The notes beneath the pieces are model-generated. The model made no database searches. It was not told the origin of the DNA and was given only the letters and a program-made list of their open reading frames with translations. Made by a program: the position numbers and the translations under genes. A DNA stretch of 64,000 bases, from the NCBI GenBank assembly GCA_019637805.1, contig JAHBVB010000001.1:881875-945874 (forward strand), read 5' to 3'. Positions 5,866 to 54,815 of the stretch are shown piece after piece; position 1 is the first letter of the stretch, and every line of letters starts with the position of its first letter. Origin of the DNA: Anaerolineales bacterium. Lineage in GTDB: Bacteria; Chloroflexota; Anaerolineae; Anaerolineales; UBA11579.

Positions 5866-5870
5866 CAACA

Positions 5871-5900: not shown

Positions 5901-5903
5901 AAG

Positions 5904-6140
5904 TTAGCGGTCTTCCAGCGGGATTTCCCGTCGGGGGTGGCGCATGGCTTCCAGCTGGCGCTCCAGTTCTTCGCGGCGTTCGTCTGCCGCACTCTGCAAC
6001 TCCTCACGGAAACGGCTGAAGCGCGTTTGGAAATCGCTGCGCAAGTCTTCGCCAGAGGTTGGCGCCAGCAAGATGGCGGTCGCCGCGCCCACCAGCGCGC
6101 CGCTCAGTAAGCCTAATACAAAAGTAAGCAATCGCCGCAT
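5904..6140 (-). CDS. YtxH domain protein
   Basis: This is a 78-residue protein with an N-terminal hydrophobic helix (LLTFVLGLLSGALVGAATAI) followed by LLAPTSGEDLR, the signature of the YtxH/gas-vesicle-like family. An amphipathic, charge-rich helix makes up the rest. Family members are small membrane-anchored, stress-associated proteins of poorly defined role. ATG at 6140 is chosen over the in-frame GTG two codons earlier because AAGGAGAG sits 6 bases before it. It is a single-gene unit convergent with the metalloprotease, sharing the terminator between them. Confidence 0.8.
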   Translation of the reverse strand: MRRLLTFVLGLLSGALVGAATAILLAPTSGEDLRSDFQTRFSRFREELQSAADERREELERQLEAMRHPRREIPLEDR

Positions 6141-6228
6141 CGTCACTCTCCTTAACTATGGTAACATGCCTACCTGACTTTTCGTTACTCCCCTGTTCTA
6201 TGAAAACTCTATTTCAAGGCATCCTTCT

Positions 6229-6951: not shown

Positions 6952-6953
6952 CC

Positions 6954-6982
6954 TTGCTCAAAGCTTGTAACTAAGAGATAAT
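6954..6982 (+). promoter_or_regulatory. candidate promoter of the pan/CoA operon
   Basis: TTGCTC (6954-6959) and GATAAT (6977-6982) are separated by 17 bases. Transcription would start near 6989 and give a leader of about 120 nt before panB. The -35 match is weak and the -10 match is good. Confidence 0.45.
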
Positions 6983-36235: not shown

Positions 36236-36378
36236 GTCGCCTCTCATGTTGAGAGGCGACCAGTAGTACGGAACTTATCGCCTCATCTCTCAGAACAATC
36301 TGCCGGAATTGGCACCTGCCGCAATTGCGGCGGTTGCCGAGGCTTCAAAGGGCCGGTCCCTCCACCTCTCTGGATGAG
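36236..36378 (-). promoter_or_regulatory. SAM-I (S-box) riboswitch of metH
   Basis: This leader turns methionine-cycle genes down when SAM is high. Read on the minus strand from 36378, P1 CTCATC pairs with GATGAG near 36282. Between them are AGAGAGGTGGAGGGACCGG, CCCTTTGAAGCC, GGCAACC and GGTGCCAATTCC, all canonical S-box blocks. Downstream, a 10-bp hairpin (36236-36260, loop AACAT) is the OFF structure. Its 5' arm TCGCCTC can instead pair with GAGGCGA at the P1 3' strand, giving the ON structure. No U-run follows the hairpin, so control may be translational. The phage recombinase frame ends inside this aptamer. Confidence 0.95.
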
Positions 36379-39130: not shown

Positions 39131-39529
39131 ATGTCTAGCAGTACGCAGACCCCTATCTACACGACCCCATTGGAGCAGTTGATCAGGACCCGAATTGAGG
39201 AAAAACGGGAGAACCGAACAGTGGGGGCGCAAGTCGGCCGCAGTGAGCTGACCATGGCAGTGATTGCCTGGTTCGAGGTGGAGCTGGGCGTGAGCCTAAC
39301 CCCTGGGCTGACGCTGAGGTTGATCGGCGCCGATTTGGACATGTTCCATGTGGAGATCCATCTAGGTCCGGGCGCACTGGTGCGCAGTGAGCATTGTTAT
39401 CGCTACTCGGGCGGCGGCATGGGTGCCGCGTCCCAAATTCGATGGATCGGCATCTCGACCCAATACGGCCGCGGCTTGTTCGGCGATTTCGTCGATGCGG
39501 CCGCGTTTGCGATGGCGGGAGTGCGATGA
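39131..39529 (+). CDS. uncharacterised phage early protein
   Basis: The product is 132 residues with no recognised domain. An N-terminal helix (TPLEQLIRTRIEEKRENRTVG) is followed by a beta-rich part with LTLRLIGADLDMFHVEIHLG. Ribosome-binding AGGAGG (39121-39126) is 4 bases from ATG 39131; the ATG at 39128 is too close. The stop overlaps the tyrosine recombinase ATG, suggesting coupled expression. Function unknown. Confidence 0.6.
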   Translation: MSSSTQTPIYTTPLEQLIRTRIEEKRENRTVGAQVGRSELTMAVIAWFEVELGVSLTPGLTLRLIGADLDMFHVEIHLGPGALVRSEHCYRYSGGGMGAASQIRWIGISTQYGRGLFGDFVDAAAFAMAGVR

Positions 39530-40440
39530 GCCCGGCCTGGAGTATTGACTTTGCCGCGTTCCTGCGGGAGCGTGAGGACCGGAGCGAGCGCACATTGGCG
39601 GCGTACTGCGGTGCGCTGCGGATCTTCGCCGCCTGGTTTGAGGCAGCGTACGGCCGGCCGTTTGCGCCGGCCGAGCTGACGGCCCGCGATGTGCGGGCCT
39701 ATCGCCACGAGTTGCAAGAGGTGCGCGGCCTGGCCGCCTCGACGATCAACGTGGCCCTGGCAGCGCTGAGAGCGCTGGCGCGCTGGGCGATGGCCAGCGG
39801 CGCCTTGACGAGCAACCCGGCGGCCAGTGTGGCCTTTGTGGAGCCGCCGCCGGCGGAGCCGCGCTGGATGACGCGCGGGGAGCTGAGCCGGCTGTTGGCC
39901 GAGTATGAGCGGGCGATCCATGATGCGGCGGCCCGCGGCGCCCAGGAGCGGCAGAGCCAGGCGACGCGTGACCTGGCGGCGGTGGCCTTGATGGCCGGGG
40001 CCGGCCTGCGGGTATCTGAGGCCTGCGCCCTGGACCTGAGCGATGTGCAGCTGGGCGAGCGCAGCGGCCAGGCGATGGTGCGTTTTGGCAAGGGGCGCCG
40101 GCAACGCCGCGTGCCGCTGAGTGCCGAGGTGCGCCAGGCGCTGGACAGTTGGATCCAGCTGCGCGGGGATGCGGATGGGCCGTTGTTGCTGGCCCAGCGT
40201 GGCGGCCGCCTGGGCCCGCGTCAGGTGGAGCGGGTGTTCGAGGAGCGCGCCCGGCGGGCGCGGCTGGAGGGCTATACACCTCACTCGCTGAGGCATACGT
40301 TTGTCAAGCGGGTGGTGGAGGCCAGCGACCTGGCCACGGCCAAAGAACTGGCCGGCCACCGGCAGATCCGCACGACGGCGCGCTATGCGGCGCCGAGCAA
40401 GCAGGAGCTGGCGGCGGCGGCTGAGGGGGTGCTGCTGTGA
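39526..40440 (+). CDS. tyrosine recombinase (XerC/D-like)
   Basis: This is a 304-residue site-specific recombinase with an N-terminal SAM-like core-binding domain (about 5-95) and a C-terminal catalytic domain. The full catalytic set is visible: Arg162 (GLRVSEA), Lys189 (FGKGRR), His253 and Arg256 (HSLRH), His278 (GHRQ) and nucleophile Tyr287 (TARYAAPS). GGGAG lies before ATG 39526. Because the prophage already has a serine integrase, this enzyme may resolve multimers or act in replication rather than integrate the phage; that is inference. Confidence 0.9.
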   Translation: MSPAWSIDFAAFLREREDRSERTLAAYCGALRIFAAWFEAAYGRPFAPAELTARDVRAYRHELQEVRGLAASTINVALAALRALARWAMASGALTSNPAASVAFVEPPPAEPRWMTRGELSRLLAEYERAIHDAAARGAQERQSQATRDLAAVALMAGAGLRVSEACALDLSDVQLGERSGQAMVRFGKGRRQRRVPLSAEVRQALDSWIQLRGDADGPLLLAQRGGRLGPRQVERVFEERARRARLEGYTPHSLRHTFVKRVVEASDLATAKELAGHRQIRTTARYAAPSKQELAAAAEGVLL

Positions 40441-40975: not shown

Positions 40976-41168
40976 CCGCATCGAGGAGGTGCGCTTCGCG
41001 CTGGGCACCCTGGCCGGCCATTTGCGGATGGTGCGCCTGCGGCTGGAGCAGGCCCGCCGGGTGCCGGGGTTGAGCGCGGTGCTGGGGCCGGGCTTGGATG
41101 CGGCCGACAAGATGGATGCGGCGCTGGCCCGGGCCGGAGCGGCGCTTAAGAAGTTGGAGCAGGAATAG
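40938..41168 (+). CDS. small helical protein, 76 residues
   Basis: A basic N-terminus (MARPSNQRTRRRDRIEEV) and a predicted coiled-coil/helical remainder make up 76 residues. GGAG lies 7 bases before the ATG. It overlaps the preceding ORF out of frame. It could be a DNA-associated accessory protein; no family is recognised. Confidence 0.5.
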   Translation: MARPSNQRTRRRDRIEEVRFALGTLAGHLRMVRLRLEQARRVPGLSAVLGPGLDAADKMDAALARAGAALKKLEQE

Positions 41169-41270
41169 GTGCTGGGTAGTCGGCCGGCCATCAGCCCGGA
41201 GTTGCGCCGAGGCTGGGTTGGTGGTTGGCCGACTGTGCGGCACAGGCTGCACAGAGGACAGGAGGCTGAG

Positions 41271-41624
41271 ATGCAGGTGATCGAGGCGACAGCGCGGCTG
41301 ACCAGTGAGCGGCATGCGCAGGTGCTGAGCCCGGAAGGCCGGTTGTTGGGCTACCGGGCGCGCATTGATTGGGCGGCCGGCCCGCGGCTGAGCCGGCGCA
41401 AGTTCAGCCGGGCGCGGGCGGCGGCGCTGTACCAGCGCCAGTTGCTGGTGCGCTATGAGGATCTGCGGGCCGCGGCGGGGCTGGGCGCGTTCAAGGTCTA
41501 CCTGGTGTGGGGCAGCGGCTACCGCTTGCTGCGCCGGCGGATGCGCTCGCGGGCGGAGGCCGAGCAGTACAGCTGGGCAGTGCCGTTGCGGTTGGGGCGG
41601 CTGAAGGCGGTGGCTGAGCCATGA
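41271..41624 (+). CDS. uncharacterised small basic protein
   Basis: This is a 117-residue basic protein with many Arg, helical in the middle (SRRKFSRARAAALYQRQLLV). ATG 41271 has AGGAGG 5 bases upstream; a GTG at 41169 would lengthen it through a stretch with no coding signal. Its stop overlaps the next ATG (ATGA). Function unknown. Confidence 0.5.
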   Translation: MQVIEATARLTSERHAQVLSPEGRLLGYRARIDWAAGPRLSRRKFSRARAAALYQRQLLVRYEDLRAAAGLGAFKVYLVWGSGYRLLRRRMRSRAEAEQYSWAVPLRLGRLKAVAEP

Positions 41625-42052
41625 TCTGCGAGTATTGCGGCCGGCGGCCAACCCGCCAGGAGCAGGAGTTCTGCCGAGGCTGCGGTGCGCCGGTGGTGGC
41701 GGCTGAGCTGCGCGTAGAGGTCCGCCAGAGTAGGGAGTACCTGGTCTGGTCCGTTGAGCGTCTGGCGGCGTTGATGGTCGAGCCGGTGGGTCCCGACTCC
41801 ATTGGCCAAGAAGCTCTTATGTACAAAGGCCGACTAATGAGCGAGCTGAGCAAGGAAGAGTTGCGCAGTGCGTTCGAGTCGCCAGATCGGCCAGCATTCA
41901 TTCTCCCTCCCGATGCTTATCGGTTTGTGAAGGAGATCGAGCGCCAGCTGGAGAGAGGCGAGGCGGAGCAAGGGCCGCCCATTGGAGTGATCACGTACTC
42001 GCTGCCCAGGTCCCTTTGGCAGCGGTTTTGGGATTGGCTGAGGGGTTGGTAA
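41621..42052 (+). CDS. zinc-ribbon protein with C-terminal amphipathic tail
   Basis: The 143-residue protein starts with CEYCGRRPTRQEQEFCRGCG, a compact zinc ribbon of the type found in small nucleic-acid or membrane-associated bacterial proteins. A helical region and a C-terminal Trp-rich helix (SLWQRFWDWLRGW) follow, which could bind a membrane. ATG overlaps the previous stop by 4 bases. Role unknown. Confidence 0.55.
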   Translation: MICEYCGRRPTRQEQEFCRGCGAPVVAAELRVEVRQSREYLVWSVERLAALMVEPVGPDSIGQEALMYKGRLMSELSKEELRSAFESPDRPAFILPPDAYRFVKEIERQLERGEAEQGPPIGVITYSLPRSLWQRFWDWLRGW

Positions 42053-42124
42053 GCGCCAGGCCAAAAAACTGGAACCCCCAGTCGACCTGGGACTGGAAAC
42101 ACCCCTAGAAACGAGGTCAGAAAC

Positions 42125-42646
42125 ATGTCAGAAATTGTTGTGCAGGGCAAACCCTCATCGCCCTACCGGGCCTATAAAGAACTGGCCCCCCAGGCCCCAT
42201 TTGCCCTTAGGGAGCTGATCGCCGCGCTGGGCTATCCGGTGGAGGAGAAGGCGGGTGGGGCGGTGTACGTTGCTGTGGAAACGCTGGGCCAGATCGCCGA
42301 GGAGTTGAGCGAGATGGTGGGCCAGAGCCCAGCTTGGGGTTGGCGCTATTTGCATGGAGTGCTGAATCAGAAGCAGGCGGCCTCGGCCAAGCTGACCCAG
42401 GCGATCTTCGCCTGGGGGGCGGTGGTGGACGGGATGCCGGCGGTGATGGCCAATACGCAGGATGTGGTGGTGCGGGCCCAGCCCGGGCAGCTGCACCCGG
42501 GGGCGGTGGTGCTGGCGGCCAGCCGGCGCTGCCGGACCTGCCGGGTGGCGTTTGTGCCGCGGGTGCCGTGGCAGCGGTGGTGCACGTCGAAGTGCAGAGG
42601 CAGGTCAGAGGGCGGAGGTGTGAAGTTGGAGGTGGGCGGTGGCTGA
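42125..42646 (+). CDS. uncharacterised phage protein with C-terminal CxxC zinc motif
   Basis: This is a 173-residue protein with a helical N-terminal two thirds and a C-terminal CRTCRVAFVPRVPWQRWCTSKC, a treble-clef or HNH-like zinc site without a visible HNH catalytic triad. A GAGG site lies upstream of ATG 42125. The 72-base gap before it has two ACTGGAA direct repeats (about 42068 and 42104 region). It may be DNA-binding; no firm family. Confidence 0.5.
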   Translation: MSEIVVQGKPSSPYRAYKELAPQAPFALRELIAALGYPVEEKAGGAVYVAVETLGQIAEELSEMVGQSPAWGWRYLHGVLNQKQAASAKLTQAIFAWGAVVDGMPAVMANTQDVVVRAQPGQLHPGAVVLAASRRCRTCRVAFVPRVPWQRWCTSKCRGRSEGGGVKLEVGGG

Positions 42647-42914
42647 GGCATTTACGGACGCTGAATTGGTTGATGCTGAGCTGAAGTCGCGGCTTTCCCC
42701 GAGCACCTACGATCTGGTGTGCAAATGGCGGAATGAGGCGGAGCGCTGGCCCAGCGTGTGGGCGAGGAGAACAAGGCTTTTTGCTTGCGGCTGCAGCAGC
42801 ACGCGGATTGAGGTTTACCGACTGCGGGAAGATTTGGCGCTGTGCCCCGCTCATCAGTCGCCGCTGGTTAGCGCTTCGGAGCATAAAGAATATGGGCAAG
42901 GCGGGCCAAGGTGA
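42639..42914 (+). CDS. small phage protein, 91 residues
   Basis: This is a 91-residue product starting at GTG with GGAGG 7 bases upstream, overlapping the previous stop by 8 bases. It contains three Cys (FACGCSS and LCPAHQ). The N-terminal part is acidic and helical. Function not recognised; kept because of the ribosome-binding site and coupling. Confidence 0.45.
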   Translation: MAEAFTDAELVDAELKSRLSPSTYDLVCKWRNEAERWPSVWARRTRLFACGCSSTRIEVYRLREDLALCPAHQSPLVSASEHKEYGQGGPR

Positions 42915-42976
42915 CCCGGCGCCGGCTGTTCGCTATCGGCTTCACCATCGGGCTGGGGCAGTTGTATGGCTCCTGA
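42911..42976 (+). CDS. possible 21-residue coupled micro-ORF
   Basis: GTG within the upstream stop (GTGA) opens a 21-codon frame encoding a basic then hydrophobic peptide (RRRLFAIGFTIGLGQLYGS). Its stop lies 11 bases inside the next gene, whose own ribosome-binding site is poor. It could exist to couple translation. Weak evidence. Confidence 0.25.
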   Translation: MTRRRLFAIGFTIGLGQLYGS

Positions 42977-43385
42977 GTTGGTGCCGGCGCCGCTGGCCGG
43001 GTTGGAGATCCGCTTCTCCCGCGAGCAGCAGCGCTATTACCTGGCCAATCGTTGGGTGATCGGCCGCCATGTGTATGGCGGTGCCTATTCACAGAGCTGG
43101 ACGGAGGCGGACAGGCGCGCCTGGCTGGAGGGATTGCTGGCCATGTGCCTGTTTGACGTGCGCGCAGATCTCTATCGGCTGCAGCCAGTGGTCAGCGATC
43201 TGGCGTTCCGGGCCGTGGTGGCTTCCCTGGGCTCCCTGCTGCATAAGACGACAATCACGGTGATGCTGGCGGAGCTGGAGGCGCAGGTGGCCTTGTGGTG
43301 CCAGTTGGAGTATGCCGACTTGAAGCTGGCGGACCTGTCGGTGTTCAGTCCCTGGCACGGCGTGGATAAAGGACGGGGCGCATGA
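42966..43385 (+). CDS. uncharacterised phage protein, 139 residues
   Basis: This protein is helical and mostly hydrophobic-amphipathic, with YYLANRWVIGRHVYGG near residue 24 and no Cys motif or membrane helix. It ends the run of small coupled genes before a 292-base structured gap. No family recognised. Confidence 0.5.
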   Translation: MAPELVPAPLAGLEIRFSREQQRYYLANRWVIGRHVYGGAYSQSWTEADRRAWLEGLLAMCLFDVRADLYRLQPVVSDLAFRAVVASLGSLLHKTTITVMLAELEAQVALWCQLEYADLKLADLSVFSPWHGVDKGRGA

Positions 43386-43677
43386 CTCCGGCCGAGCCGC
43401 CGCCGGAGCGATAGGCCGGCGCGCCGCCATCCACCGCCCTGCGGCCCGGAAGTGATTCGCCGCCGCTGGTGGGTAGGAAGTCAGTAGCAGGGAAATTCCC
43501 AACCTACCCCATATCCCCCCTGGCGGGGTCGACGTGGGGGAAAACGCGTTTCGGCGGGGGTTCCCCCTGGGGATGGGATAGGTCGCACAAATGCTTTTGT
43601 GCGACGTTTATTGGCGGGCGGCACGGCTGGGCAACGGCCGGGCGGCCCGAATAAGAGGCAGGAATTAGGTCGCATAA
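43386..43677 (+). promoter_or_regulatory. structured gap upstream of the primase-helicase gene
   Basis: This 292-base gap has several inverted repeats: GGGTAGG (43471-43477) with CCTACCC (43503-43509) enclosing GGGAAATTCCC, G/C-block pairs at 43512-43577, and a 10-bp hairpin GTCGCACAAA/TTTGTGCGAC (43582-43605). The 15-base TAGGTCGCAYAAATG occurs twice, at 43579-43593 and at 43666-43680, the second copy containing the primase start codon. This suits an operator for autoregulation or an origin-linked region. Confidence 0.55.
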
Positions 43678-46425
43678 ATGACGAACGCGGTAGACATCGA
43701 GGCCATCAAACAAGCCAACCGGATCGAGGACCTGGTGGAGGAAGCCGGCTTCCGGCTGGAGGGGCGGGGCCGCTATCGGCGCTGGAGCCAGCACGGCTCG
43801 TTTGTGGTGGATACGGGCAATCAGTCTTTCCACGACAACCACAACCAAGTGGGCGCCGGCCTGCCTGACCGTGGCGATATTGTGGACTGGGTGTGTTGGT
43901 GGAAGAAGGTGCAGTTCAAAGACGCCATCGAGTTCCTGGCGCGGCGGGCGGGCATGGAGTTGCCCGACCGCTGGGCCGGGGACAACGAGGTGCGGCTGGC
44001 GGCCCGGGCTAAGGAGGACGCGCTGACGGTGATCTGCCGGCGCTATGTGCAGCGCCTGTGGCGGACGCACGCGGCGCTGACGTATGCCCGGGGGCGGGCC
44101 TGGGACGATGAGGCGATCAAGGCGGCCGGGCTGGGATACACGGGCTCGGGCGACCGTGAGGAGGCCGACGAGCTGCGCAAGGACCTGGAGGCCAACCTGG
44201 TGGACCCGGAGAGCCCGGGGGCGGTGTCGCTGCTGGGCTATACGGGCGACGTGGCGGCCTGGGGGCGCAAGCACCAGGTGGAGGTGGACCCGGCCTGGGT
44301 GCAGGCGGGGCGGATCCCCGGGGCGCCGAAGGGGATGCTGGTCTACCCGCACGTGGCTGGCGGGCGGGTGGTGTACGTGAGCTTCCGGGGCATCAGGGAG
44401 AAGCGGCACCACAACCTGCCGGCGGCGCTGGCTGGACCCAAGCAAGCCTATCGCAATGCGGTCTGGGCGCCACAGGCGGAGAGCGTGGTGGTGGTGGAGG
44501 GGCAGGCGGACGCAGTGAGCCTGGGCGCCATGGGCCAGGCAGCGGTGGCGCTGGCCGGCAGCCACGTGAGCGAGGATCTGCTGCGCCAGCTGCGGGGCCA
44601 CGAGACGGTGTACCTGGGCCTGGACGTGGACACAGAGGGCGGGGCGGTGGCGGCCAAGGCCGGCGCCCAGCTGGCAGCGGCCCTGGGGCCGCTGGTGCGC
44701 CTGGTGCGCTGGCCGCAGGGCAACGACGCCAACGCCTGGCATCAGGCGTTGGCGGGGGAGCAGGTTGCGGTTGAAGCGCAAGCGGCCGCGCTGCGGTCGA
44801 CGCTGCTCAAATCGCCAACACTCGTGGAGGATTTGGCCGCTCAGGTGGGGGCGATGGATGGAGCGGAGCGAGCCAAAGCTATGAAGGATGTGATGGCGAT
44901 GGTAGCCCAGCTGGACGGTAGCGACCGAGCGCAGCTGCGGTCCAAGCTCGCAAAATTTCTGGGCGTAAATGTGCGGGATTTTGGCCACATGCTGGCTGAG
45001 ACCGAGAAGCTGCTGCTGGCCAGCGTCGATGAGGGCGAGGAAGGCGAGGTGGAGACGGCCGGCGGCTATATCAAGGGCTGGCTGGTGGACCTGCTTTACG
45101 ATCCAGAAAAGCAGCGCACATTTTTTGCCTACCGGGATCCGGACGGGAAGATCGACACGGCGACTCAGCTGGAGATTGAGGGAACCACTTACAAGCCGCT
45201 TTTGCCCGACGATCTACTGCTGAAAGGTGTGGTGGTGCTGCCCTCGGCGCTGGGTGGTGGGCTGAGTGAGAGCGAGCTGGTGGCCAGGATTGTGGCGCTG
45301 GTGCTGCGCTACTACCTGATCGATGAGTTCTACGCTCGGCTGCTGGCTTATTACGTGATGTTCACCTATCACTTCGACAGTTTCCGCTCACTGGTCTACC
45401 TGCGAGTGCTGGGTGACTTCGGCAGCGGCAAAAGCCGCCTTCTGTGGATGGTGGGCTATTTGAGCCGGCGGCTAATCAAGTTAACCGGTGCCACCACGGA
45501 AGCATCCCTATTCCGGATTATGGACCGCTACAAGGGGACCCTGGTGATCGACGAAGCCGACCAGGCAGAGTCTGACCTAGAAGATACGCGCACGAAGTTG
45601 ATGAACCAGGGGAACCAGCGGGATCTGATGGTTGTACGCCAGCAAGACGATGGGCGGGGTGGCTATAAAAGCGTGGCCTTTGATGTGTATGGGCCGAAGA
45701 TTTTGGCCACGCGGCGGCGCTTTCAGGACGAGGCCCTGGAAAGCCGCTGCCTGACGTTGGAGACGATCAAGCACAGTAGCGCTGAGCTCAAATCTCGGGG
45801 GATCCCTTTCGAGCTGAATCGGGCGTTTGACTCAGCGTGCGCCGAGCTGCGTAACGAGCTGCTGCTGTTCCGCTTGAAAACCTGGCTGCCTGACCGTGAG
45901 GTGGCGCCCGACCTGGCGGATGAGCACGTACAGGCGCGGCTGAACCAGGTGATGATGCCTGTCAAAGAGATTATCTCGGACCCCGTTGTGCGCGAGGAGA
46001 TCACCCAGCTGACGCGGCGCTACCAGCAACGCATGGTGACCGAGCGCAGCATGGAGGTGGAGGCCAAGGTGCTGCAGGCGATCGTGGAGATCTGGCAGGC
46101 CGGCCCGGTGACCGAGAAAGAGGGCAAGGCAATCGAACCCTACTACGATCTGAGCATGGGCAACATCGCCAAGATGGCCAACCGGGTGATTGACCAGGAG
46201 AATGCCGACCCGGATGAGGAGGGAGAGGACGGCGAGGAAGGCGGGGGCAACCCAAACCGAAAAAAGCTGACTTCGCGGGGTGTGGGGTCGTATCTGAAAA
46301 ACAATTTGAACCTGCAGTCGGAGAAGGCCAAGAACGGCCCGTTGAAAAGTAAGTACGTGCTGGTGTGGGAAGAGGAGCGCATCCGAGGGCTGTGCGCCGA
46401 ATACGGCGTGGAGATTGACGGGTGA
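43678..46425 (+). CDS. phage primase-helicase fusion protein
   Basis: The 915-residue protein combines a primase and an AAA-type ATPase. The first about 100 residues align with a DnaG CHC2 zinc domain (RGDIVDWVCWW) but the zinc Cys/His are missing. A TOPRIM fold follows with the catalytic Glu in VVVVEGQADA (about 270) and YLGLDVDTEG for the acidic pair. The ATPase half has Walker A GDFGSGKS (about 579) and Walker B LVIDEAD (about 622). A helical C-terminal region follows. It would prime and unwind phage DNA. Repeats in front of the gene and iterons behind it fit a replication module. Confidence 0.85.
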   Translation: MTNAVDIEAIKQANRIEDLVEEAGFRLEGRGRYRRWSQHGSFVVDTGNQSFHDNHNQVGAGLPDRGDIVDWVCWWKKVQFKDAIEFLARRAGMELPDRWAGDNEVRLAARAKEDALTVICRRYVQRLWRTHAALTYARGRAWDDEAIKAAGLGYTGSGDREEADELRKDLEANLVDPESPGAVSLLGYTGDVAAWGRKHQVEVDPAWVQAGRIPGAPKGMLVYPHVAGGRVVYVSFRGIREKRHHNLPAALAGPKQAYRNAVWAPQAESVVVVEGQADAVSLGAMGQAAVALAGSHVSEDLLRQLRGHETVYLGLDVDTEGGAVAAKAGAQLAAALGPLVRLVRWPQGNDANAWHQALAGEQVAVEAQAAALRSTLLKSPTLVEDLAAQVGAMDGAERAKAMKDVMAMVAQLDGSDRAQLRSKLAKFLGVNVRDFGHMLAETEKLLLASVDEGEEGEVETAGGYIKGWLVDLLYDPEKQRTFFAYRDPDGKIDTATQLEIEGTTYKPLLPDDLLLKGVVVLPSALGGGLSESELVARIVALVLRYYLIDEFYARLLAYYVMFTYHFDSFRSLVYLRVLGDFGSGKSRLLWMVGYLSRRLIKLTGATTEASLFRIMDRYKGTLVIDEADQAESDLEDTRTKLMNQGNQRDLMVVRQQDDGRGGYKSVAFDVYGPKILATRRRFQDEALESRCLTLETIKHSSAELKSRGIPFELNRAFDSACAELRNELLLFRLKTWLPDREVAPDLADEHVQARLNQVMMPVKEIISDPVVREEITQLTRRYQQRMVTERSMEVEAKVLQAIVEIWQAGPVTEKEGKAIEPYYDLSMGNIAKMANRVIDQENADPDEEGEDGEEGGGNPNRKKLTSRGVGSYLKNNLNLQSEKAKNGPLKSKYVLVWEEERIRGLCAEYGVEIDG

Positions 46426-46985
46426 ACAGGCCGGTGGACGTGGTGGATGTAGTGGACGTTGGCCGATTTTACGGCGCCGGACTACTGCTGGCTGATGCAG
46501 GGGCACGGCGGAGGCGGAATTTACCCGTAATTGGTGGAGGTAGTGGACGTAGTGGACGTCCATGCGGGGATGATGGATATGTTTTGTCGTCGCGGAGAGA
46601 GGCCCATTTACGGGTAATTGCAAGCATCTGCGCCGGTGGATGTGTAGCACTTAGTGTCTGTTTAACCGCGAAAGACGAAAAAAAGGGCCTTGGCGACGTG
46701 GCTCCTGCTGCTTCTGGTGGACGTCGCGCGCGCGACGTCCACCGAATCGACCGCGACGTCCACCGCGCGGGGGATTCGAGGCGCGATTCGGGACCAGGCG
46801 GGGCGAGCGGCGCGACGCTGGGAATGGCAAACGCGCGCGATTTAGATAAAGGGCTGCGCCCAAGAAGGACGCGGCTATGCGCAAATCAAACAGGGGCTGG
46901 GGGTATGTACGTCCCCTACGTCCCCTATGTCCACCGCGGGCGGTTGTTCGCGGGATATGGCACAAGCGAAAGGCAGGGTTGAGTT
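46426..46985. repeat. iteron and palindrome region (candidate phage origin)
   Basis: No convincing gene fills these 560 bases. Three triplets of a 9-bp unit related to GTGGACGTA occur: forward at 46434-46460, forward at 46534-46560, and inverted at 46908-46934. A single inverted GTGGACGT lies at 46756-46763. A 28-bp perfect palindrome at 46716-46743 carries the unit in both orientations. TTACCCGTAA (near 46521) and its reverse complement TTACGGGTAA (near 46609) form a further pair. An open frame from 46422 crosses it, but the triplets fall in different frames, so selection acts on DNA. Confidence 0.75.
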
Positions 46986-47426
46986 ATGGCGGATGAGCGT
47001 GTGAAAACCGGAGAGGTTGGCTTTTGCCCGCACTGCGGTGAGGTAGCGGATGTGGTGGTGCCGGCGGGGGACCGGCTGCAGGCGCGATTGCTGGCGGCGA
47101 ATGCCCGGCTTTGGTCCCGAATGCCGCCCGTGCCAGGTTTCAGCGGCACGGGAACTGCACGTGTGGGCCGCACCAGGCTGGCTGGAGCAATCGCGATCCT
47201 GGGGGGAGCGAGCGAGAACGCTGTGAAGATTATCAGGAAGGCGGGCTACCGGCCCCTGTGTAGCTCGGAACTGGAGGCCCTGTGTATGTGTCTGAGCGAA
47301 ATGCAGGCCGAGCTGGTCGAGGCAGAGGAAGCCCTGCGGGAGTTGCTGGGCGAGCCGGTGGACCTACTCCGACTGGCGACAGAGTGCCGAGAGTCGACGT
47401 TTGCAGGTGAGGGTGGCGATGACTGA
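46986..47426 (+). CDS. small protein with N-terminal CPHC zinc motif
   Basis: This is a 146-residue protein with CPHCG near residue 14, a basic middle part and an acidic helical C-terminus (SEMQAELVEAEEALRELLG). The second Cys pair of a full zinc ribbon is not obvious. The stop overlaps the next ATG. It may regulate or load replication proteins, but no family is recognised. Confidence 0.5.
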   Translation: MADERVKTGEVGFCPHCGEVADVVVPAGDRLQARLLAANARLWSRMPPVPGFSGTGTARVGRTRLAGAIAILGGASENAVKIIRKAGYRPLCSSELEALCMCLSEMQAELVEAEEALRELLGEPVDLLRLATECRESTFAGEGGDD

Positions 47427-47823
47427 GCGCGTGCTGCCGCTGCTAGATGGTGTGGGGATCTCCGCCGAGGCGGCCCGACTGCTGCCGCTGGAGGTGACCT
47501 GGGCGGTGGAGGAGGAGATCTATGGCGAGGCGGATTACCGCGGCTGGGAAGACATGTCGCCGGCGGGCCTGGCCGGTGGCCGGCTGCAGCTGGCGTACCT
47601 GGGCGGCAAAGCGATCGAGACGGTTGAAGCGGCCCGGGGTGAGCATGTGACCGTGAACCAGGTTAGCCGCAGCGGCCTGTGCCAGCTGCGGGTCGTGCGG
47701 CTGGGGCGGCCGGTGGATGCGGAGCACTACCTGGGGCTGGCGCCAGCGAATGCGCAGGCCTGGGCCTGGGTGGACCGGCGCAGCGGGCAGGACGTGCACA
47801 CCCTGTGGCTGTTATGGAACTGA
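47419..47823 (+). CDS. uncharacterised phage protein, 134 residues
   Basis: ATG 47419 overlaps the previous stop by 8 bases. The product is acidic and mixed alpha/beta with an ending of alternating aromatic residues (AQAWAWVDRRSGQDVHTLWL). No catalytic motif is visible. It is co-transcribed with the ParB-like gene. Function unknown. Confidence 0.5.
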   Translation: MTERVLPLLDGVGISAEAARLLPLEVTWAVEEEIYGEADYRGWEDMSPAGLAGGRLQLAYLGGKAIETVEAARGEHVTVNQVSRSGLCQLRVVRLGRPVDAEHYLGLAPANAQAWAWVDRRSGQDVHTLWLLWN

Positions 47824-47835
47824 GTGGAGGTTGGA

Positions 47836-48237
47836 ATGTTTGATTTGGACGGGCACCCGGCGCTGACCGATAACTTGCGCTACCGCTATGCCTCGACTTG
47901 GAGTGGCAAGGCGGACGCGGTGTGCCAGGTGCGCATCTTTGCGCCCGCGGGCAAGCCCTCGGTAGTGGTGGTCAGTGAGTTGGCCGAGAACACCGGCACC
48001 AGCGTGACGAATGCCTGCGAACGTCTTGTGGCTGAGCTGCAGAAAGCGTTTGAGCTGCCGGCGGACACGGTTTGGGTGGAGCACTGGCGCGAGGATGGAC
48101 GTATGCCGAGATCCGCATGGGGGACAGGAGAGAGCTTTGACGTGATCGAGCTACTGGGATTGCCAGGCGTACGTCGTTGGAGGCGGTTGTCGCCGGAGAA
48201 GATGGCAGCGTTGCTGGAGGCCGGCGATGGAGACTGA
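47836..48237 (+). CDS. uncharacterised phage protein, 133 residues
   Basis: ATG 47836 is used because GGAGG lies 5 bases upstream; a GTG 12 bases earlier is less likely. The product has a beta-rich first half (RIFAPAGKPSVVVVSELAEN) and a helix (VTNACERLVAELQKAFELP). Its end overlaps the next gene by 11 bases. No family is recognised. Confidence 0.5.
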   Translation: MFDLDGHPALTDNLRYRYASTWSGKADAVCQVRIFAPAGKPSVVVVSELAENTGTSVTNACERLVAELQKAFELPADTVWVEHWREDGRMPRSAWGTGESFDVIELLGLPGVRRWRRLSPEKMAALLEAGDGD

Positions 48238-48517
48238 TGGGCGGCCGGCGCGGTGGACCTGCAAGTGTGGGTACACGCTGGGGCTGGTGCCGGAGCGGCC
48301 GCGAAAGGTACGCAGCCTGGTGCTGCTGCCGCGGGCGTGGCCGCCGACCGACTGGCCGCCGAAGACGTTGGTGGAGGCCAGCCTGGTGACGCTGACGGGC
48401 AAGGCGGTGGTGCGCTGCAGCCGCTGCGGACGCACGCGCACCTGGCATGCGGCGGCGTATGCGACGCAGGATTTTTTGGAGCGCCGAGCGGCGCGGAAGG
48501 AGCAAAGCGATGGGTGA
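48227..48517 (+). CDS. zinc-ribbon protein upstream of ParB-like gene
   Basis: This is a 96-residue protein with two CxC/CxxC knuckles, CKCG near residue 12 and CSRCGRTRTWH near 64, forming a likely zinc ribbon. GGAGG lies 6 bases before the ATG. Its last 8 bases overlap the ParB-like gene. It may bind nucleic acid together with ParB; that is inference from position. Confidence 0.55.
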   Translation: METDGRPARWTCKCGYTLGLVPERPRKVRSLVLLPRAWPPTDWPPKTLVEASLVTLTGKAVVRCSRCGRTRTWHAAAYATQDFLERRAARKEQSDG

Positions 48518-50048
48518 GCAAGTGATGGTGGATTTGAAGTTGATCGACCCAAACCCGTACCAGATGCGGCAGGCAGAGGACCCGGCCGCGGTGGCGGAGC
48601 TGGCGGCGAGCATCCAGCGCAGCGGGCTGCTGGAGCGGCCCTCGGCGCGGCGGGCCGGCGACCGCTGGCAGCTGGTGTTCGGGCATACGCGGCTGGCCGC
48701 CTTCCGACTGTTGGCCAAGCAAGACAGCCAGTATGCGCAGATGCCGCTGGAGGTGGTGGGCGAGCTGGACGACCGGCAGATGTTTGAGCTGGGGCTGGCT
48801 GAGAACCTGAAGCGCCGGCAGCTGAACGCGATCGAGGTGGCGCATGCGCTGAAGACCTACATGGAGCAGTTCGAGGCGACCAGCGAGGAGGCCGGCGAAC
48901 TGTTCGGCCTGCAGGCGAGCACGGTGCGCGGGAAGGTGCGGCTGCTGGAGTTGCCGAAACCGGTGCAGGAGAAGCTGGCGGGCGGGGAACTGAGCGAGGG
49001 GAATGCGAGGGTTTTAGTGTCGCTTTTGAAAGTCGGATTTGATGACCAGGAGCTGCAGGCCGTGCTTCAGAAGGCGGATAGTTGGCACGATGGCAACATC
49101 GAGACTTCTGCTGAATCAGCTCTCAGACAAAAGACTATCCTGCTTGCGAGAGAGTCCGAGAAAAAAGTTAGAAAGGGCCGTTGGAAGCTCGACCTCAAGG
49201 CAGGGGGATTTGGCCAATTCCCCCTGGTGGAGGAAGGGCAGTTTGATCCTGAGGTAGCGGAGCACCTGAAGTCTCCACCTGCCTGCTCAGGCTGCAAATT
49301 CCGGGTGACATTGCGGCGCAATCAATATTGCGGCCTGGCGGCTTGCTACGATCAAAAAAGCAATGCCTGGTTTGGAATGCTTTTAGCACAGGCCAGCAAG
49401 AAAACTGGAGTTCCACCTTATCAAAAAGGAGATGGCAAATATGCAATGGTTGGCTATGGCGATAGCTGGGAAAAAATATTGGAGAAAAAAGATTTTGCCG
49501 AAGTGCGCTTGTTGGTAAACGATGATACATGGCGAGAGTTTAAAGGCCTCCCCAACAACATCGTGCCGGTTTTGGTGGGTGGGGCGCTGAAGGCGGCGGG
49601 GCAGCAATACGGGTCGCCGTATGGAGAAGCTGATCGCAAAGCCCGGCTGCGCTCACGGCGGAAGCCGGCGGTAAAGGCTTTTTTGCGAACGGTGGCCGGC
49701 GAGCACTTCGCCGACCGATTGGAGGGCGTACCTCAGCAGGTCCTGAAGGATTATATGGACGAGGCAAGGCCCTATGATTTGCCGTCCACATGGGGGAAGA
49801 GCTTTAAGTCGGAGCAGCGCCGGGAAATGGTTGCGTGGTATACGCTTTGGCGACACATGCCTGAGCCGACGTTGGATGGGGATAGTTACTGGCAAAAGAT
49901 AGCCACCTATCTGGAGGGGCAGGCCAAGTTTTGGGGTTTCGAGTTGCCAAATGATGTTCGGCAAGCTGCTGAGCGCGAGCATAAGGCCGTTGCTGCGGAA
50001 ACGGCCGCCAAGAAAGCCAAAGGCAAGGCGAGGAAGAAGGTAAAATAA
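48510..50048 (+). CDS. ParB/RepB/Spo0J-family partition or nuclease-like protein
   Basis: The 512-residue protein begins with a ParB N-terminal domain: VDLKLIDPNPYQMRQ, IQRSGLLERPSARR and GHTRLAAFRLL. ELGLAENLKRRQLNAIEVAHAL and an HTH region (about 115-180) follow. The remaining 330 residues form a large extension with four Cys (SPPACSGCKF ... QYCGLAACYD), absent from chromosomal ParB. The 3' half is clearly more AT-rich than the 5' half, suggesting fusion or replacement. No ParA is nearby, so a replication or transcription role is as likely as partition. AAGGAG lies 7 bases before ATG 48510. Confidence 0.8.
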   Translation: MGEQVMVDLKLIDPNPYQMRQAEDPAAVAELAASIQRSGLLERPSARRAGDRWQLVFGHTRLAAFRLLAKQDSQYAQMPLEVVGELDDRQMFELGLAENLKRRQLNAIEVAHALKTYMEQFEATSEEAGELFGLQASTVRGKVRLLELPKPVQEKLAGGELSEGNARVLVSLLKVGFDDQELQAVLQKADSWHDGNIETSAESALRQKTILLARESEKKVRKGRWKLDLKAGGFGQFPLVEEGQFDPEVAEHLKSPPACSGCKFRVTLRRNQYCGLAACYDQKSNAWFGMLLAQASKKTGVPPYQKGDGKYAMVGYGDSWEKILEKKDFAEVRLLVNDDTWREFKGLPNNIVPVLVGGALKAAGQQYGSPYGEADRKARLRSRRKPAVKAFLRTVAGEHFADRLEGVPQQVLKDYMDEARPYDLPSTWGKSFKSEQRREMVAWYTLWRHMPEPTLDGDSYWQKIATYLEGQAKFWGFELPNDVRQAAEREHKAVAAETAAKKAKGKARKKVK

Positions 50049-50064
50049 CAAACGGAGGGGAGTT

Positions 50065-50538
50065 ATGAGATTCTTGCGTGAAGAGTTGAGCACAGGTGAC
50101 TACAGGAATTTTGTTTTTCAAAATGCTGTGGGGGCTGAGGTAAGGGTGCATGTATCTGGAACCCTGCAGGCATTAAGGTCTTTGCATGTGGACAGGCCTT
50201 TATACGGCGAGCTTGGGCTGCGTGCAATTGCTGCAAATGCAGCCGAACGCCATCCTGATAGGGAGCAAGGTGTTGTCCCTTTGCAGACCGATAATGTCGA
50301 CGAATTTCTGCCGATTGTGTTGCAGATTGGGGGGTGGATGAATGGTTGGGTACTGAAGCAGGGCAGTCATTTTGCCTACGACACCCAACCTATTCCTGAT
50401 CACCTGCCTGCCTTCAGGGTTGGCCGGGATGAACGGGTTCGGTTTGAGACAGCCTCCGAGTGCCTGGAGCATCTGATCGCCCAAGCAGCCGAGGAGTATC
50501 AGCAAGAAATTGCTTTGCGACTAGGTGCCTTAGAATAA
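50065..50538 (+). CDS. uncharacterised phage protein, 157 residues
   Basis: AACGGAGGGGAG precedes the ATG at 50065. The product is a soluble alpha/beta protein with a helical C-terminus (ECLEHLIAQAAEEYQQEIAL). Its gene shares the lower GC of the end of the ParB-like gene and of the next gene, so the three may have arrived together. No domain is recognised. Confidence 0.55.
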   Translation: MRFLREELSTGDYRNFVFQNAVGAEVRVHVSGTLQALRSLHVDRPLYGELGLRAIAANAAERHPDREQGVVPLQTDNVDEFLPIVLQIGGWMNGWVLKQGSHFAYDTQPIPDHLPAFRVGRDERVRFETASECLEHLIAQAAEEYQQEIALRLGALE

Positions 50539-50557
50539 GTTCTTCGGAGAGGATATT

Positions 50558-50986
50558 GTGGCGAGGTTTCTCAAAGTTCTGCATCCTAGTAAGTTCAGCA
50601 TTCAAGCCAGACCAACCGACTGGAGGCGTCTTACCCCGTTTCAATATTGGACTTTCCCATACAACACAGGCTCGCCACTGCCCTTTGAGCTGGAGGTGAC
50701 CGATGTTCCCTATGAGCTCAACATTGTTTTTCTTTCGCAGCTTGATCTCTACATAAGGACAAGGCAAGACGAAGTGAGAGAATTTCCGCATTTTGAAAAC
50801 ATTCAAGCTTTCAAAGCAGAATATCGGTTTTCAGTGCAGGGCGAAGAAAATTTTGAGCTTTGGTCAGGCAAACCTGATGCCCCAGGCTCACGAATGCTTA
50901 TTTTTGCGGACCAAGTAAACCCTACCACAATTATTTGGAGCCTGATTTCAGTTATTTTCGGCGCGATCCTGGGATGGTTGCTGTGA
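50558..50986 (+). CDS. C-terminally anchored membrane protein
   Basis: This is a 142-residue protein with a beta-rich soluble part and a single C-terminal transmembrane helix (IIWSLISVIFGAILGWLL), a tail-anchored layout. GGAGAGG lies upstream of the GTG start. The gene is AT-rich compared with the phage average. Function unknown; it might act at the cell membrane during infection. Confidence 0.55.
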   Translation: MARFLKVLHPSKFSIQARPTDWRRLTPFQYWTFPYNTGSPLPFELEVTDVPYELNIVFLSQLDLYIRTRQDEVREFPHFENIQAFKAEYRFSVQGEENFELWSGKPDAPGSRMLIFADQVNPTTIIWSLISVIFGAILGWLL

Positions 50987-50994
50987 AAATGACC

Positions 50995-51246
50995 TTATCT
51001 TTTCACTAACTGATTGATCATCTTTTGCTGCTCGATGAGGATGGCCAGGAGGACTTTCTCCAGGGGGATGACCAGGGGCAATTGGTCCATGAGCTTGAGG
51101 TTCTCGGCCGCAGCCAGGTAGAGCTGGTCGAAAGCTTGCTGGTCGGCCTGGCGGAGGGTGTTGCGGAAAGCCAGCAGCTCCGCCGGCATGGAATGGGGGC
51201 TAATTTCGCTCATTTTGGGCGCCAACTGCTTGACAAGACTTATCAT
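50995..51246 (-). CDS. small helical protein related to the 51809-52060 product
   Basis: This is an 83-residue helical protein on the minus strand. Its C-terminal half (PLEKVLLAILIEQQKMINQL) aligns with the plus-strand protein at 51809-52060 (PFEMVLLAMQLEQQKQLDEL), also 83 residues. The match supports it as a real gene although a plus-strand frame overlaps it. It is the only leftward gene in the replication module. The start may be ATG 51246 or a later ATG. Confidence 0.55.
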   Translation of the reverse strand: MISLVKQLAPKMSEISPHSMPAELLAFRNTLRQADQQAFDQLYLAAAENLKLMDQLPLVIPLEKVLLAILIEQQKMINQLVKR

Positions 51247-51275
51247 AGCACAGGTGTTCTGTTAGAGTCCAGCGC

Positions 51276-51809
51276 ATGGATCTGATGCGCTTGATGGCCC
51301 CAGGCCGGCCGCTGTTTGCGGTGCTGGTTGGCCCGCACCCCCAACGGGAAGCATTGCTGGACCTGATCGCAGCCCTGGCATTTGCCGGCCCGGTGCACGT
51401 GCTGGATGGCGGCAACCACTTCGACCCGATCCGGATCGCCTATCGAATACGAGCCCATACCCCTGACCTGATGACCTACGCGGACCGTATCCGGGTGGTG
51501 CGAGCCTTCACCTGTGTGGAGGTGCTGCGAGCCCTGCAGGCCCAGGAGGCTGGCCCTCCGCTGATCATCATGGACATGCTGGCCACCTTCTACGACGAGG
51601 CGGTGAGCCACCGCCGCAGCGGCTTGCTGGTGGCGGAGTGCCTGCAGGAGATCCGCCGGCTGAAAGCCCCAGTGCTGGCCAGCGTGCGCAACGGCCAGCC
51701 GGCCGATGGGCCGCGGGCGCACTTGTTGCAGGCGCTGGTCGATGCCGCCGACCTGGTGGATGAGCCGAGCGAACGGCTGGCCGCGCCGGCAGAACTGAGG
51801 CTGTTCTGA
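51276..51809 (+). CDS. RecA/KaiC-like ATPase-fold protein with degenerate P-loop
   Basis: This is a 177-residue protein with the order of a RecA-fold core: strand LFAVLVG, a loop GPHPQREALLDLI where a Walker A would sit but without GK(S/T), VHVLDGGNHFDP, and a Walker-B-like strand PPLIIMDML. The missing Lys suggests it does not hydrolyse ATP or is a structural partner. It lies directly before the polymerase gene with two one- to four-base overlaps between them, so it may be a replication accessory factor. Fold assignment is moderate. Confidence 0.5.
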   Translation: MDLMRLMAPGRPLFAVLVGPHPQREALLDLIAALAFAGPVHVLDGGNHFDPIRIAYRIRAHTPDLMTYADRIRVVRAFTCVEVLRALQAQEAGPPLIIMDMLATFYDEAVSHRRSGLLVAECLQEIRRLKAPVLASVRNGQPADGPRAHLLQALVDAADLVDEPSERLAAPAELRLF

Positions 51810-52060
51810 TGGGGCGCACGACGCAGACCGTGACCGACTTCATCCGCCAGATGGAGAGCCAGCTGGGGCCGGTGGGCAAGGCGCTCACGCCAGAGGAGCG
51901 CATGATCCTGCGGCGGCTGTTCAGCGGCGCCCGGCGGCACATTGCAGCGATCACGATGAGCGGGCACCTGCTGCCCTTCGAGATGGTGCTGCTGGCGATG
52001 CAGCTGGAGCAGCAAAAACAGCTGGACGAGCTGCGGGCGCAACTGGAGGGCGGAGAGTGA
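51809..52060 (+). CDS. small helical protein before DNA polymerase
   Basis: This is an 83-residue helical protein whose ATG overlaps the upstream stop by one base and whose stop overlaps the polymerase GTG by 4 bases. Its C-terminal PFEMVLLAMQLEQQKQLDEL matches the minus-strand protein at 50995-51246. It could be a polymerase accessory or a dimerising regulator; no family recognised. Confidence 0.6.
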   Translation: MGRTTQTVTDFIRQMESQLGPVGKALTPEERMILRRLFSGARRHIAAITMSGHLLPFEMVLLAMQLEQQKQLDELRAQLEGGE

Positions 52061-54327
52061 GCACAGAGATCGGCTGGCTGTTGGACCTGTATGCCGACGA
52101 GCGCCGGCGCGGCCTGGTGCTGTGGCTGGCCTGCAAAGACGGCCGGCGGCTGCAGCTGCAGCAGGCATTCCCGATCACGTTCTATGCCACGGGCGACTTC
52201 GCCGTGCTGCGCCAGCTGTGGGATTACCTGCGCAAGCAGCCGGTGCACACGCTGCGCGAACGAACCAGCAGGCAAGACTCGACCGGGCAGGTTTTTGATG
52301 TGATGGCGATCACGGTGTTGAACCCAGCCCTGCAGCCGCGGCTGTTCCGGGAGGTGGAGGAGCGCTTTCCGCAGCTGACCTATTTCGACTGCGATCTGAG
52401 CGTGTCGCTGCGCTATGCGGCCGCCTTCGATGTTTTCCCGATGAGCCTGTGCGAAGTGGATATCGAGGATGGCTGGGTAAAGGCAATACGGCCGCTGAAC
52501 AGCCGCTGGGAGGTCTTCCCGGAGGAGCCCAGCCTGCGGTTGCTGCGCATTTTCCCGGACACGGACCCGCTGCATGAGCGGCCGCGGGTGCTGCACCTGC
52601 AGAGCGAGCAGCGTCAGCACCAGATCCCGCTGAGCTCTGCGCGGCTGCTGATCAGTGGGATGAACAGCTTGTTGGCGTTGGAGGACCCTGACCTGATCCT
52701 GGCTGAGCGAGGCGACACCTGGTTGTTCCCCTTGCTGCGGCGGGCGGCCAAGAAGGCCGGCATGGAATTCAACCCCAATCGGGACAAGAGCCGGCCGCCC
52801 CGGGAGATCCGGGAGAACAGCTATTTCTCCTATGGGCGGGTGATCTACCGCGGGCAGCAGACCCACCTGTTCGGGCGCTGGCACATCGACGGGAAGAACG
52901 CCACGACCTACAGCCACTATGGGGTGCAGGGCGCCATCGAGCAGGCCCAGGTGAGTGCGATGCCGGTGCAGGAGATGGCACGCAAATCGCCCGGGTCCGG
53001 CATCACGGCGATGTTCACGCTGACCACGCTGCGGCGCGGCCACCTGGTGCCGTATGAGAAGCTGCGGGTGGAAAGCCCAAAGACGCTGCGGCAGCTGTAT
53101 GCGGCCGACAAGGGCGGGCTGATCTACCAACCTACACTGGGCCTGCATTGCCACGTGGTGCAGATCGATTACTCCTCGATGTATCCCTCGATCATGGCGC
53201 TGTGGAACGTCTCGCCCGAGACGGTGGGGGTGGCCAGCGAGGTGGTCAAGAAGGTGCCGGAGATCGACCTGGTGATCGACCAGACCCGGCGGGGCGTGGT
53301 GGCGGAGACGCTGGCGCCGTTGCTGGAGAAACGCCTGGCGATCAAAGCGATGCTGGCCGAGATGGCGAAGGACAGCCTGGAGTACCAGGCGCTGGAGGCA
53401 CGCAATACGGCGCTGAAGTGGTTGCTGGTGGTGTGCTTTGGCTACCAGGGCTATAAGAATTTCCGGGAAGGCAAGGTTGAGGCGCATGAGGCGATCACGG
53501 CGTTCAGCCGGGACGCCTTGCTGCGGACCATGCGCATTGTCGAAGAGCTGGGCTTTGAGGTGCTGCACATGTACGTGGACTCGCTGTGGATCAAGCGGGC
53601 CGATGAGCGGCCGATCAGCCAGGAGGAGGTGCGGCGCGTGCTGGACAAGGTGGAGAAGGATATCGGCCTGCCGATCTCGGTGGAGGCGCGCTACAAGTTC
53701 GTGGCGTTCCTGCCGGCACGCGGCAACGCAGAGGTGCCAGTGCCGAACCGCTACTTTGGCCAACTGGAGGATGGCAGCTGGAAGGTGCGCGGCACACCCA
53801 GCCGGCGGCACGATACACCGCGGCTGGTGAGCGAGCTGGAACAGGAATTGCTGGAGTGCCTGGGCGGGAGCGGCCACCCAGCCGGCCGGGTGCAGGATGT
53901 GGTGACCTTGCTGCGGCAGCGGGTGGATGAGATGCGCAGCGGCGGGGTGCCGCTGGAGAAGCTGGTGGCCAGTGTGAACATCAGCAAACCACCGGGGGAC
54001 TATCGGGTGCGGTCCAGCGCGGCGACGGCCGGGCTGCAGATGGAGGCGGCCGGTCGGCCGGTGCGGGCCGGCCAGCTGGTGCGCTTTGTGTATGTGCGCG
54101 GCGAGCCGCGGGTGCATGCCTGGGAAGGCGGGGGCGGCTTGCGCGGCAAGCAGATAGACACCAGCCGCTATGTGGACCTGATCTTGCGGATGGCGGTGAC
54201 CTTCCTGCAGCCGTTGGGGGTCAGCGAGACGATGCTGCGGGCGTGGGTGGTGGAGCGGGCCTGGTATGGACCGGGGCCGGAGGAGTTTGCGCTGGGCGAG
54301 CGGCTGGAGATGCCATCGCTGAGGTAA
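52057..54327 (+). CDS. family B DNA polymerase (proofreading motifs degenerate)
   Basis: This 756-residue enzyme would replicate phage DNA. Polymerase motif A is DYSSMYPS (Asp371). Motif B is around LKWLLVVCFGYQGYKN (Lys454) with the usual NSxYG changed to VCFGYQG. Motif C is MYVDSLW (Asp508), where the first Asp of the usual DTDS is replaced by Tyr506. Exo I survives as YFDCDLS (111-113), but Exo II and Exo III acidic residues are absent in the aligned segments. Start is GTG 52057 overlapping the previous stop. Catalysis by Asp371/Asp508 still looks possible. Confidence 0.85.
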   Translation: MSTEIGWLLDLYADERRRGLVLWLACKDGRRLQLQQAFPITFYATGDFAVLRQLWDYLRKQPVHTLRERTSRQDSTGQVFDVMAITVLNPALQPRLFREVEERFPQLTYFDCDLSVSLRYAAAFDVFPMSLCEVDIEDGWVKAIRPLNSRWEVFPEEPSLRLLRIFPDTDPLHERPRVLHLQSEQRQHQIPLSSARLLISGMNSLLALEDPDLILAERGDTWLFPLLRRAAKKAGMEFNPNRDKSRPPREIRENSYFSYGRVIYRGQQTHLFGRWHIDGKNATTYSHYGVQGAIEQAQVSAMPVQEMARKSPGSGITAMFTLTTLRRGHLVPYEKLRVESPKTLRQLYAADKGGLIYQPTLGLHCHVVQIDYSSMYPSIMALWNVSPETVGVASEVVKKVPEIDLVIDQTRRGVVAETLAPLLEKRLAIKAMLAEMAKDSLEYQALEARNTALKWLLVVCFGYQGYKNFREGKVEAHEAITAFSRDALLRTMRIVEELGFEVLHMYVDSLWIKRADERPISQEEVRRVLDKVEKDIGLPISVEARYKFVAFLPARGNAEVPVPNRYFGQLEDGSWKVRGTPSRRHDTPRLVSELEQELLECLGGSGHPAGRVQDVVTLLRQRVDEMRSGGVPLEKLVASVNISKPPGDYRVRSSAATAGLQMEAAGRPVRAGQLVRFVYVRGEPRVHAWEGGGGLRGKQIDTSRYVDLILRMAVTFLQPLGVSETMLRAWVVERAWYGPGPEEFALGERLEMPSLR

Positions 54328-54665
54328 AAAAGACTCAGAAGAAAAAAAATAAAAATTGTTTATTACTTGAGTTTGTTCTAAGGTTTTTGTTTAAGTTAGA
54401 TTTGAATTCCGTAAGGCAAACAAGTTTTTAAGGTCGTCGTGTGAAAAGCTACAGTATTATGTGTCAGGAGCAAGAATTTGTTCCCTGATGAAAGCAAACC
54501 GCCACGAGCTAGCACTCGCGGCGGTTGCGGGAAACGGTGCATTTTCTGCACGGTGTACGACAATAATAAGGCTGTGTGCTTAGGATTGTCAAGTTTTTCA
54601 ATAGGATACACCATTCCCGCCGCTTTCTGATGTTTCTTCTTGAGACAACAGAAAGGAGGGCAATC
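54328..54665 (+). other. AT-rich gap with several hairpins
   Basis: The first about 140 bases are strongly AT-rich, unlike the rest of the phage. Then come hairpins: CAGGAGCAA...TTGTTCCCTG (about 54462-54486), AACCGCC...GGCGGTT (about 54498-54527) and GTGCA/TGCAC (about 54536-54550). No convincing gene is seen on either strand. It may hold a promoter, an unwinding element or a structured RNA. Confidence 0.45.
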
Positions 54666-54749
54666 ATGGGTTTGGAACCCTTTGCCGTAGCGGTTCTTGC
54701 CGGACTATTCGTTTTGCTGGTAGAACGAGTATTGATGGCTAAACCCTAG
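54666..54749 (+). CDS. 27-residue hydrophobic peptide (holin-like or type I toxin-like)
   Basis: ATG 54666 has AAAGGAGGG 7 bases upstream, the strongest ribosome-binding site of the phage region. The 27-residue product is one transmembrane helix (AVAVLAGLFVLLVERVLM) with a short basic end, and an intrinsic terminator follows at once. This is the layout of small phage membrane peptides and of type I toxins. No antisense RNA promoter is clear. Function is inference. Confidence 0.6.
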   Translation: MGLEPFAVAVLAGLFVLLVERVLMAKP

Positions 54750-54785
54750 AAAAAAAGGCCGCCGGAGCCCTCCGGCGGCCTTTTT
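54750..54785. terminator. intrinsic terminator
   Basis: AAAAAAAGGCCGCCGGA and TCCGGCGGCCTTTTT form a 10-bp GC stem around GCCC with A- and T-runs, right after the 27-residue gene. Confidence 0.92.
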
Positions 54786-54787
54786 GA

Positions 54788-54815
54788 TTGACATTGCATT
54801 TGTTAGCGTGATAAG
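54788..54815 (+). promoter_or_regulatory. promoter before leader RNA copy 1 (terminase unit)
   Basis: A perfect TTGACA (54788-54793) is followed 16 bases later by GATAAG (54810-54815). The start near 54822 is about 10 bases before the conserved RNA element. Confidence 0.65.

Follow-up and report, generated by a model that had tools for sequence, protein, structure and literature searches.

The satellite P4 requires both ori and crr, and the latter (4291-4590), which lies beside the alpha gene (4636-6969), carries just beyond that gene the type 1 repeats, annotated as GTGAACAG and arranged in 9-bp tandem. The alpha helicase belongs to SF3 (PMC9611036). PICIs, which are satellites as well, have their origin immediately past the 3' end of the initiator gene, with two iteron sets in it, and the function of pri-rep-ori has been tested in plasmids (PMC6092414). 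Replication of pRN1 depends on a region 3' of its primase-helicase gene (PMC4234260), and iteron plasmids have multiple direct repeats of about 20-22 bp near the gene of their initiator Rep.

The window, i.e. the whole 64-kb stretch of DNA that was analysed, contains a prophage with a serine integrase, an HTH repressor, a tyrosine integrase, a primase-helicase, a ParB-like protein, a family B polymerase, a terminase, a portal and a head protein. Between the stop codon of the primase-helicase gene and the next gene, which starts at 46986, lie 560 bases (46426-46985). They hold nine exact copies of the unit GTGGAYGT, along with near-units, and both strands are used. The P4 type 1 repeats are the closest characterised parallel, as they share the 8-bp units, the 9-bp tandem spacing, the occurrence on both strands and the position directly past the 3' end of a primase-helicase gene. 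The region would work in the manner of a P4-type origin, and the replication origin of the prophage is most likely to be sought in it.

The likeness has its limits. The AAA+ domain encoded in the window is structurally closest to MCM, whereas alpha is an SF3 helicase, a comparison of the primase-helicase family profile (A2) with P4 alpha by hhalign aligned the primase half only (probability 18%), and the C-terminal domains of the two proteins have no detectable sequence similarity. P4 needs two sites, whereas the genome of the window has exact tandem units at a single place, and the element, with its terminase, portal and PolB, is a complete phage and not a satellite. Because neither the helicase nor the two-site arrangement has a match, the region is not filed in the P4 family. 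With the pri-rep-ori of PICIs and SaPIs it shares the position immediately 3' of the initiator gene and the sets of iterons, a likeness that concerns the layout; there the iterons flank an AT-rich stretch, whereas the AT-richer middle of the region reaches only about 52% AT. Like in the pRN1 orf904 replicon, a noncoding region follows the primase-helicase gene directly, but that of pRN1 works as a stem-loop and has no iterons. Multiple direct repeats near an initiator gene are also found in iteron plasmids, but in the window the repeats are roughly half as long and half as widely spaced, and the initiator would be a primase-helicase.

The repeat region and the primase-helicase

The features are given below, where G007 is the corresponding prophage of a sister genome.

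43678-46425, + strand: primase-helicase of 915 amino acids, with a Zn/Toprim primase (about 1-440), an AAA+ domain (about 519-793) and a C-terminal winged-helix-like domain
46057-46404, + strand: codons of this C-terminal domain (residues about 794-909), the proposed repeat reader
46433-46459, + strand: forward iteron triplet 1, GGTGGACGT GGTGGATGT AGTGGACGT, beginning 8 bp past the primase stop codon
46533-46559, + strand: forward iteron triplet 2, GGTGGAGGT AGTGGACGT AGTGGACGT, with a counterpart in G007
46600-46700, no strand: AT-richest stretch (AT at most 0.52 in 50-bp windows), a putative melting zone
46635-46643, + strand: single forward unit GGTGGATGT; the aligned place in G007 reads GGTGAACAA
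46667-46677: CGCGAAAGACG within the AT-richest stretch, conserved in G007
46716-46743, no strand: perfect 28-bp palindrome (14+14, 100%) with one unit per strand; in G007 a near-palindrome that carries the other word
46756-46764, - strand: single inverted unit GGTGGACGT
46909-46935, - strand: inverted degenerate iteron triplet, GGTGGACAT AGGGGACGT AGGGGACGT, two units of which read GGGGACGT
48447-50048: ParB-like protein (ParB_N and HTH_ParB domains), 1.5 kb downstream of the repeat region

The basic unit is GTGGACGT, and neighbouring units inside the triplets are spaced by 9 bp. The two forward triplets, the inverted triplet, the single inverted unit and the palindrome had all been recognised in a first-pass annotation of the sequence and were confirmed; the single forward unit at 46635 was missing from that list. 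The same annotation had regarded a 9-bp period as unusual for iterons, but since the P4 type 1 repeats have this period, it is not unprecedented. Triplet 2 is flanked by ATTTACCCGTAATTG (46519-46533) and ATTTACGGGTAATTG (46606-46620), the former of which is partly kept in G007.

With up to three mismatches allowed, GTGGACGTNGTGGACGT, a tandem pair of units, has nine matches in the window, seven of them in 46426-46985. Chance would give 0.40 in the window, and none of 100 shuffled sequences reached nine. All exact matches of GTGGAYGTNGTGGAYGT in the 2.3-Mb genome are in the region, exact tandem copies occur nowhere else, and the region holds 9 of the 17 exact GTGGAYGT units of the 64 kb. The DNA secondary structure of 46426-46985 is not unusual (z -1.6), and Rfam and tRNA scans gave no matches.

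The primase-helicase is recognised by Pfam (Toprim_2, 1.1e-9) and by a profile match to the DnaG structure 2au3 (E 2.6e-42), and its structure model matches DnaG with a Z of 24.7 and MCM-like AAA+ proteins with a Z of about 11, with D5-like helicases ranking lower than MCM for the AAA+ domain. Judged from the model, a DnaG-type primase and an AAA+ domain closest to MCM thus appear to be joined in one protein. The C-terminal domain, modelled separately (pTM 0.77), is predicted to consist of helices plus a beta wing and finds weak structural matches (Z 6-7) among the winged helices of ORC/Cdc6 and MarR. The structure of the P4 origin-binding domain is absent among the matches listed for this domain, and a profile of the C-terminal domain gave nothing significant against PDB sequences.

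The prophage G007 has a primase that is 58% identical and a matching downstream layout. Its units read GTGAAC or GTGAAT where the window has GTGGAC or GTGGAT, which applies to the two forward arrays as well as to the opposite strand, i.e. the repeat word changed in concert between the two prophages, and GTGAAC is also part of the P4 word. The comparison with related phages that had been proposed as a check came out in favour of repeats that are kept in layout and altered together in word. Searches of viral contigs by single protein or pair profile, as well as a first scan of genome contigs, yielded no close relatives of the primase.

Other parts of the prophage are kept to differing degrees. 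The large serine integrase (36345-37889) and the tyrosine integrase (39394-40440) bracket the HTH repressor, and both are kept in G007 and in a close prophage of a third genome of the genus (G014, L309/L310; TerL 87% identical). The family B DNA polymerase (52057-54327) has no homologue in G007, though primase, repeats and ParB are kept there. The third prophage is devoid of the whole replication module: the flanks of 41033-54806 align, and only about 230 bp lie between them.

Arrays and words in related elements

Relatives were collected by protein alone, disregarding repeats, and were then tested for tandem periodicity; an array was accepted when its 9-bp period was stronger than in Markov shuffles (p<0.05). 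By this measure, 25 of 38 non-redundant relatives have a 9-bp tandem array in the 150 bp that follow the stop codon of the primase. Upstream, 2/39 qualify, and within the gene 2/44. The commonest best period after the stop codon is 9; about a third of the relatives have no clear array by this test. The words vary among elements (ACCGTTCAT/ACCCTACAT, ACTGACCAT, GTTTGACTG, TGTCACAGT, GTGACGGCT and others). The closest full-length relatives have regions of 365-645 bp with related words on both strands, and one of them (L247) has 14 copies of GTGTACTT.

It is the C-terminal domain of the primase with which the word varies. In 32 relatives with three different words, protein similarity was compared between same-word and different-word pairs in windows of 40 columns. 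The last about 70 residues separate the words with an AUC of 0.99, which is a descriptive value and not a formal test, because the word groups came from pattern rules that we set up ourselves for the arrays and were in part filled in manually afterwards, and because the sequences are related by descent. Other windows gave 0.41-0.67, the permutation maximum at the C-terminus was 0.61, and the leap from 0.65 to 0.99 occurs between adjacent 40-residue windows at the domain boundary. Five columns (843, 848, 849, 853 and 854 in L256) account for 90% or more of the information on the word, and all of them are in or beside the beta wing hairpin of the winged-helix-like domain. The co-variation was measured in more distant relatives; the subfamily of the window comprises only a handful of elements. 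The C-terminal domain of the window aligns with the one used for this analysis.

As the array starts within about 60 bp of the codons of the C-terminal domain, word and domain might co-vary merely as DNA neighbours that recombine as one block. This is unlikely, given that similarity jumps at the domain boundary and the informative residues cluster in the wing, and the DNA 250-1450 bp after the primase stop has an AUC for the word of only 0.52, which speaks against simple linkage. A recognition of the words by the C-terminal domain fits these observations better.

A comparable arrangement was met in another primase family. When viral contigs were scanned blindly for triplets of GTGRAYGT, 41 loci resulted. 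Raw pattern counts in such contigs are no evidence, and separation is by the two-strand criterion only: in 21 of the 41 loci, clusters of 6-14 units occupy both strands, versus 3 of the 120 matches listed for a reversed-pattern control. In the examined loci, the clusters overlap or closely follow the 3' end of a DUF7146-Toprim gene or, in L097, of an NrS-1-like gene, and the word homogeneity per phage is 0.93, versus 0.54 when words are shuffled among phages. In the DUF7146-Toprim primases (L062-L102) the repeats sit inside the coding 3' end, and the protein tail is therefore written in repeat words, in several frames. The A2 profile does not match the DUF7146-Toprim family and hence gives no grounds for relating the two primase families to each other.

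Operator, partition site or origin

Initiators often autoregulate, and the arrays sit in a run of + strand genes. The repeats could thus form an operator array at which the primase-helicase or another phage regulator binds and autoregulates the early operon, with replication starting elsewhere. However, most arrays of the relatives come after the primase gene and not before its promoter, units spread over about 500 bp on both strands are unusual for an operator, and the parallels in P4 and PICIs are origins, so that there is little to be expected from this explanation. Still less probable is a parS-like partition site for the ParB-like protein of the prophage. The ParB_N and HTH_ParB domains are encoded nearby and the 28-bp palindrome is parS-like in form, but of the 61 related primase loci, most of which have arrays, only L244 has a ParB relative in its 5-kb flanks; the cognate gene is thus not kept with the site, and the word co-varies with the primase C-terminus. 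Of the binders that had been suggested in the first-pass annotation, the primase-helicase fits, whereas binding by ParB or the zinc-ribbon protein is disfavoured, as these were not found beside the arrays of the relatives.

The only long open reading frame over the region (46422-46982, 186 codons) overlaps the primase stop codon. Compared with its G007 homologue, mismatches by codon position are.39/.44/.45, versus.31/.27/.50 in the primase, and gaps are not multiples of three; because of both, the frame is unsupported as a conserved protein, a candidate rejected on this basis. The frame is also open and about equally long in G007, where it has no codon-position signal either. The earlier statements that the 560 bases have no convincing gene and that the triplets are in different frames of this reading frame are borne out. 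That the repeats are the coding sequence of a repeat-bearing small protein is hardly conceivable: the frame is open across the whole region in both prophages and triplet 1 reads VDVVDVVDV in frame, but besides the missing codon bias and the frame-breaking gaps, units occupy different frames and strands, no Pfam match was found, and the arrays of other relatives have quite different words.

The remaining reading is that of an origin. The region is quite probably the replication origin of the prophage or a crr-like essential origin element, the words of which would be read by the C-terminal domain of the primase-helicase itself, as judged from sequence comparisons. The initial proposal of a candidate phage replication origin has gained support from the array in G007, the arrays after most primases of the relatives, the co-variation of word and C-terminus, and the P4 anatomy. 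The arrays of the DUF7146-Toprim family and the position of the PICI and pRN1 elements count in its favour too. Against it speak that the AT-richest stretch has only about 52% AT, that the GC skew is positive throughout 40-64 kb with no switch at the repeats, and that a second site was not found in the genome-wide search for exact tandem units.

As an origin, the region may function as follows. Copies of the primase-helicase would bind the 8-bp words through their winged-helix-like domains, and through the 9-bp tandem spacing and the opposite orientation of the arrays, an oligomer would form to either side of the palindrome and the AT-richer middle. Loading and DNA opening at this place would be the task of the AAA+ domain, after which synthesis may be started by the primase domain.

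A possible class of modular replicons in Anaerolineae

Seen together with its relatives, the locus may represent a class of modular replicons that is widespread in phages and mobile elements of Anaerolineae and so far undescribed, although the chances of this are about even. In these replicons, a DnaG primase would be fused to an MCM-like helicase, and an interchangeable C-terminal wing would read the 9-bp iteron word that follows its own gene directly and is specific to the element. The identity of the replicon would then be set by a few residues of the wing. As a probable origin, the region would extend the P4/PICI-style origin, with an initiator gene followed by short iterons, to phages and elements of a poorly studied phylum and to a different helicase. 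The paired words and wing sequences would be a natural set for the direct testing of a protein-DNA recognition code, and a simple rule for finding origins would follow, which is to seek 9-bp tandem repeats just past a primase-helicase gene.
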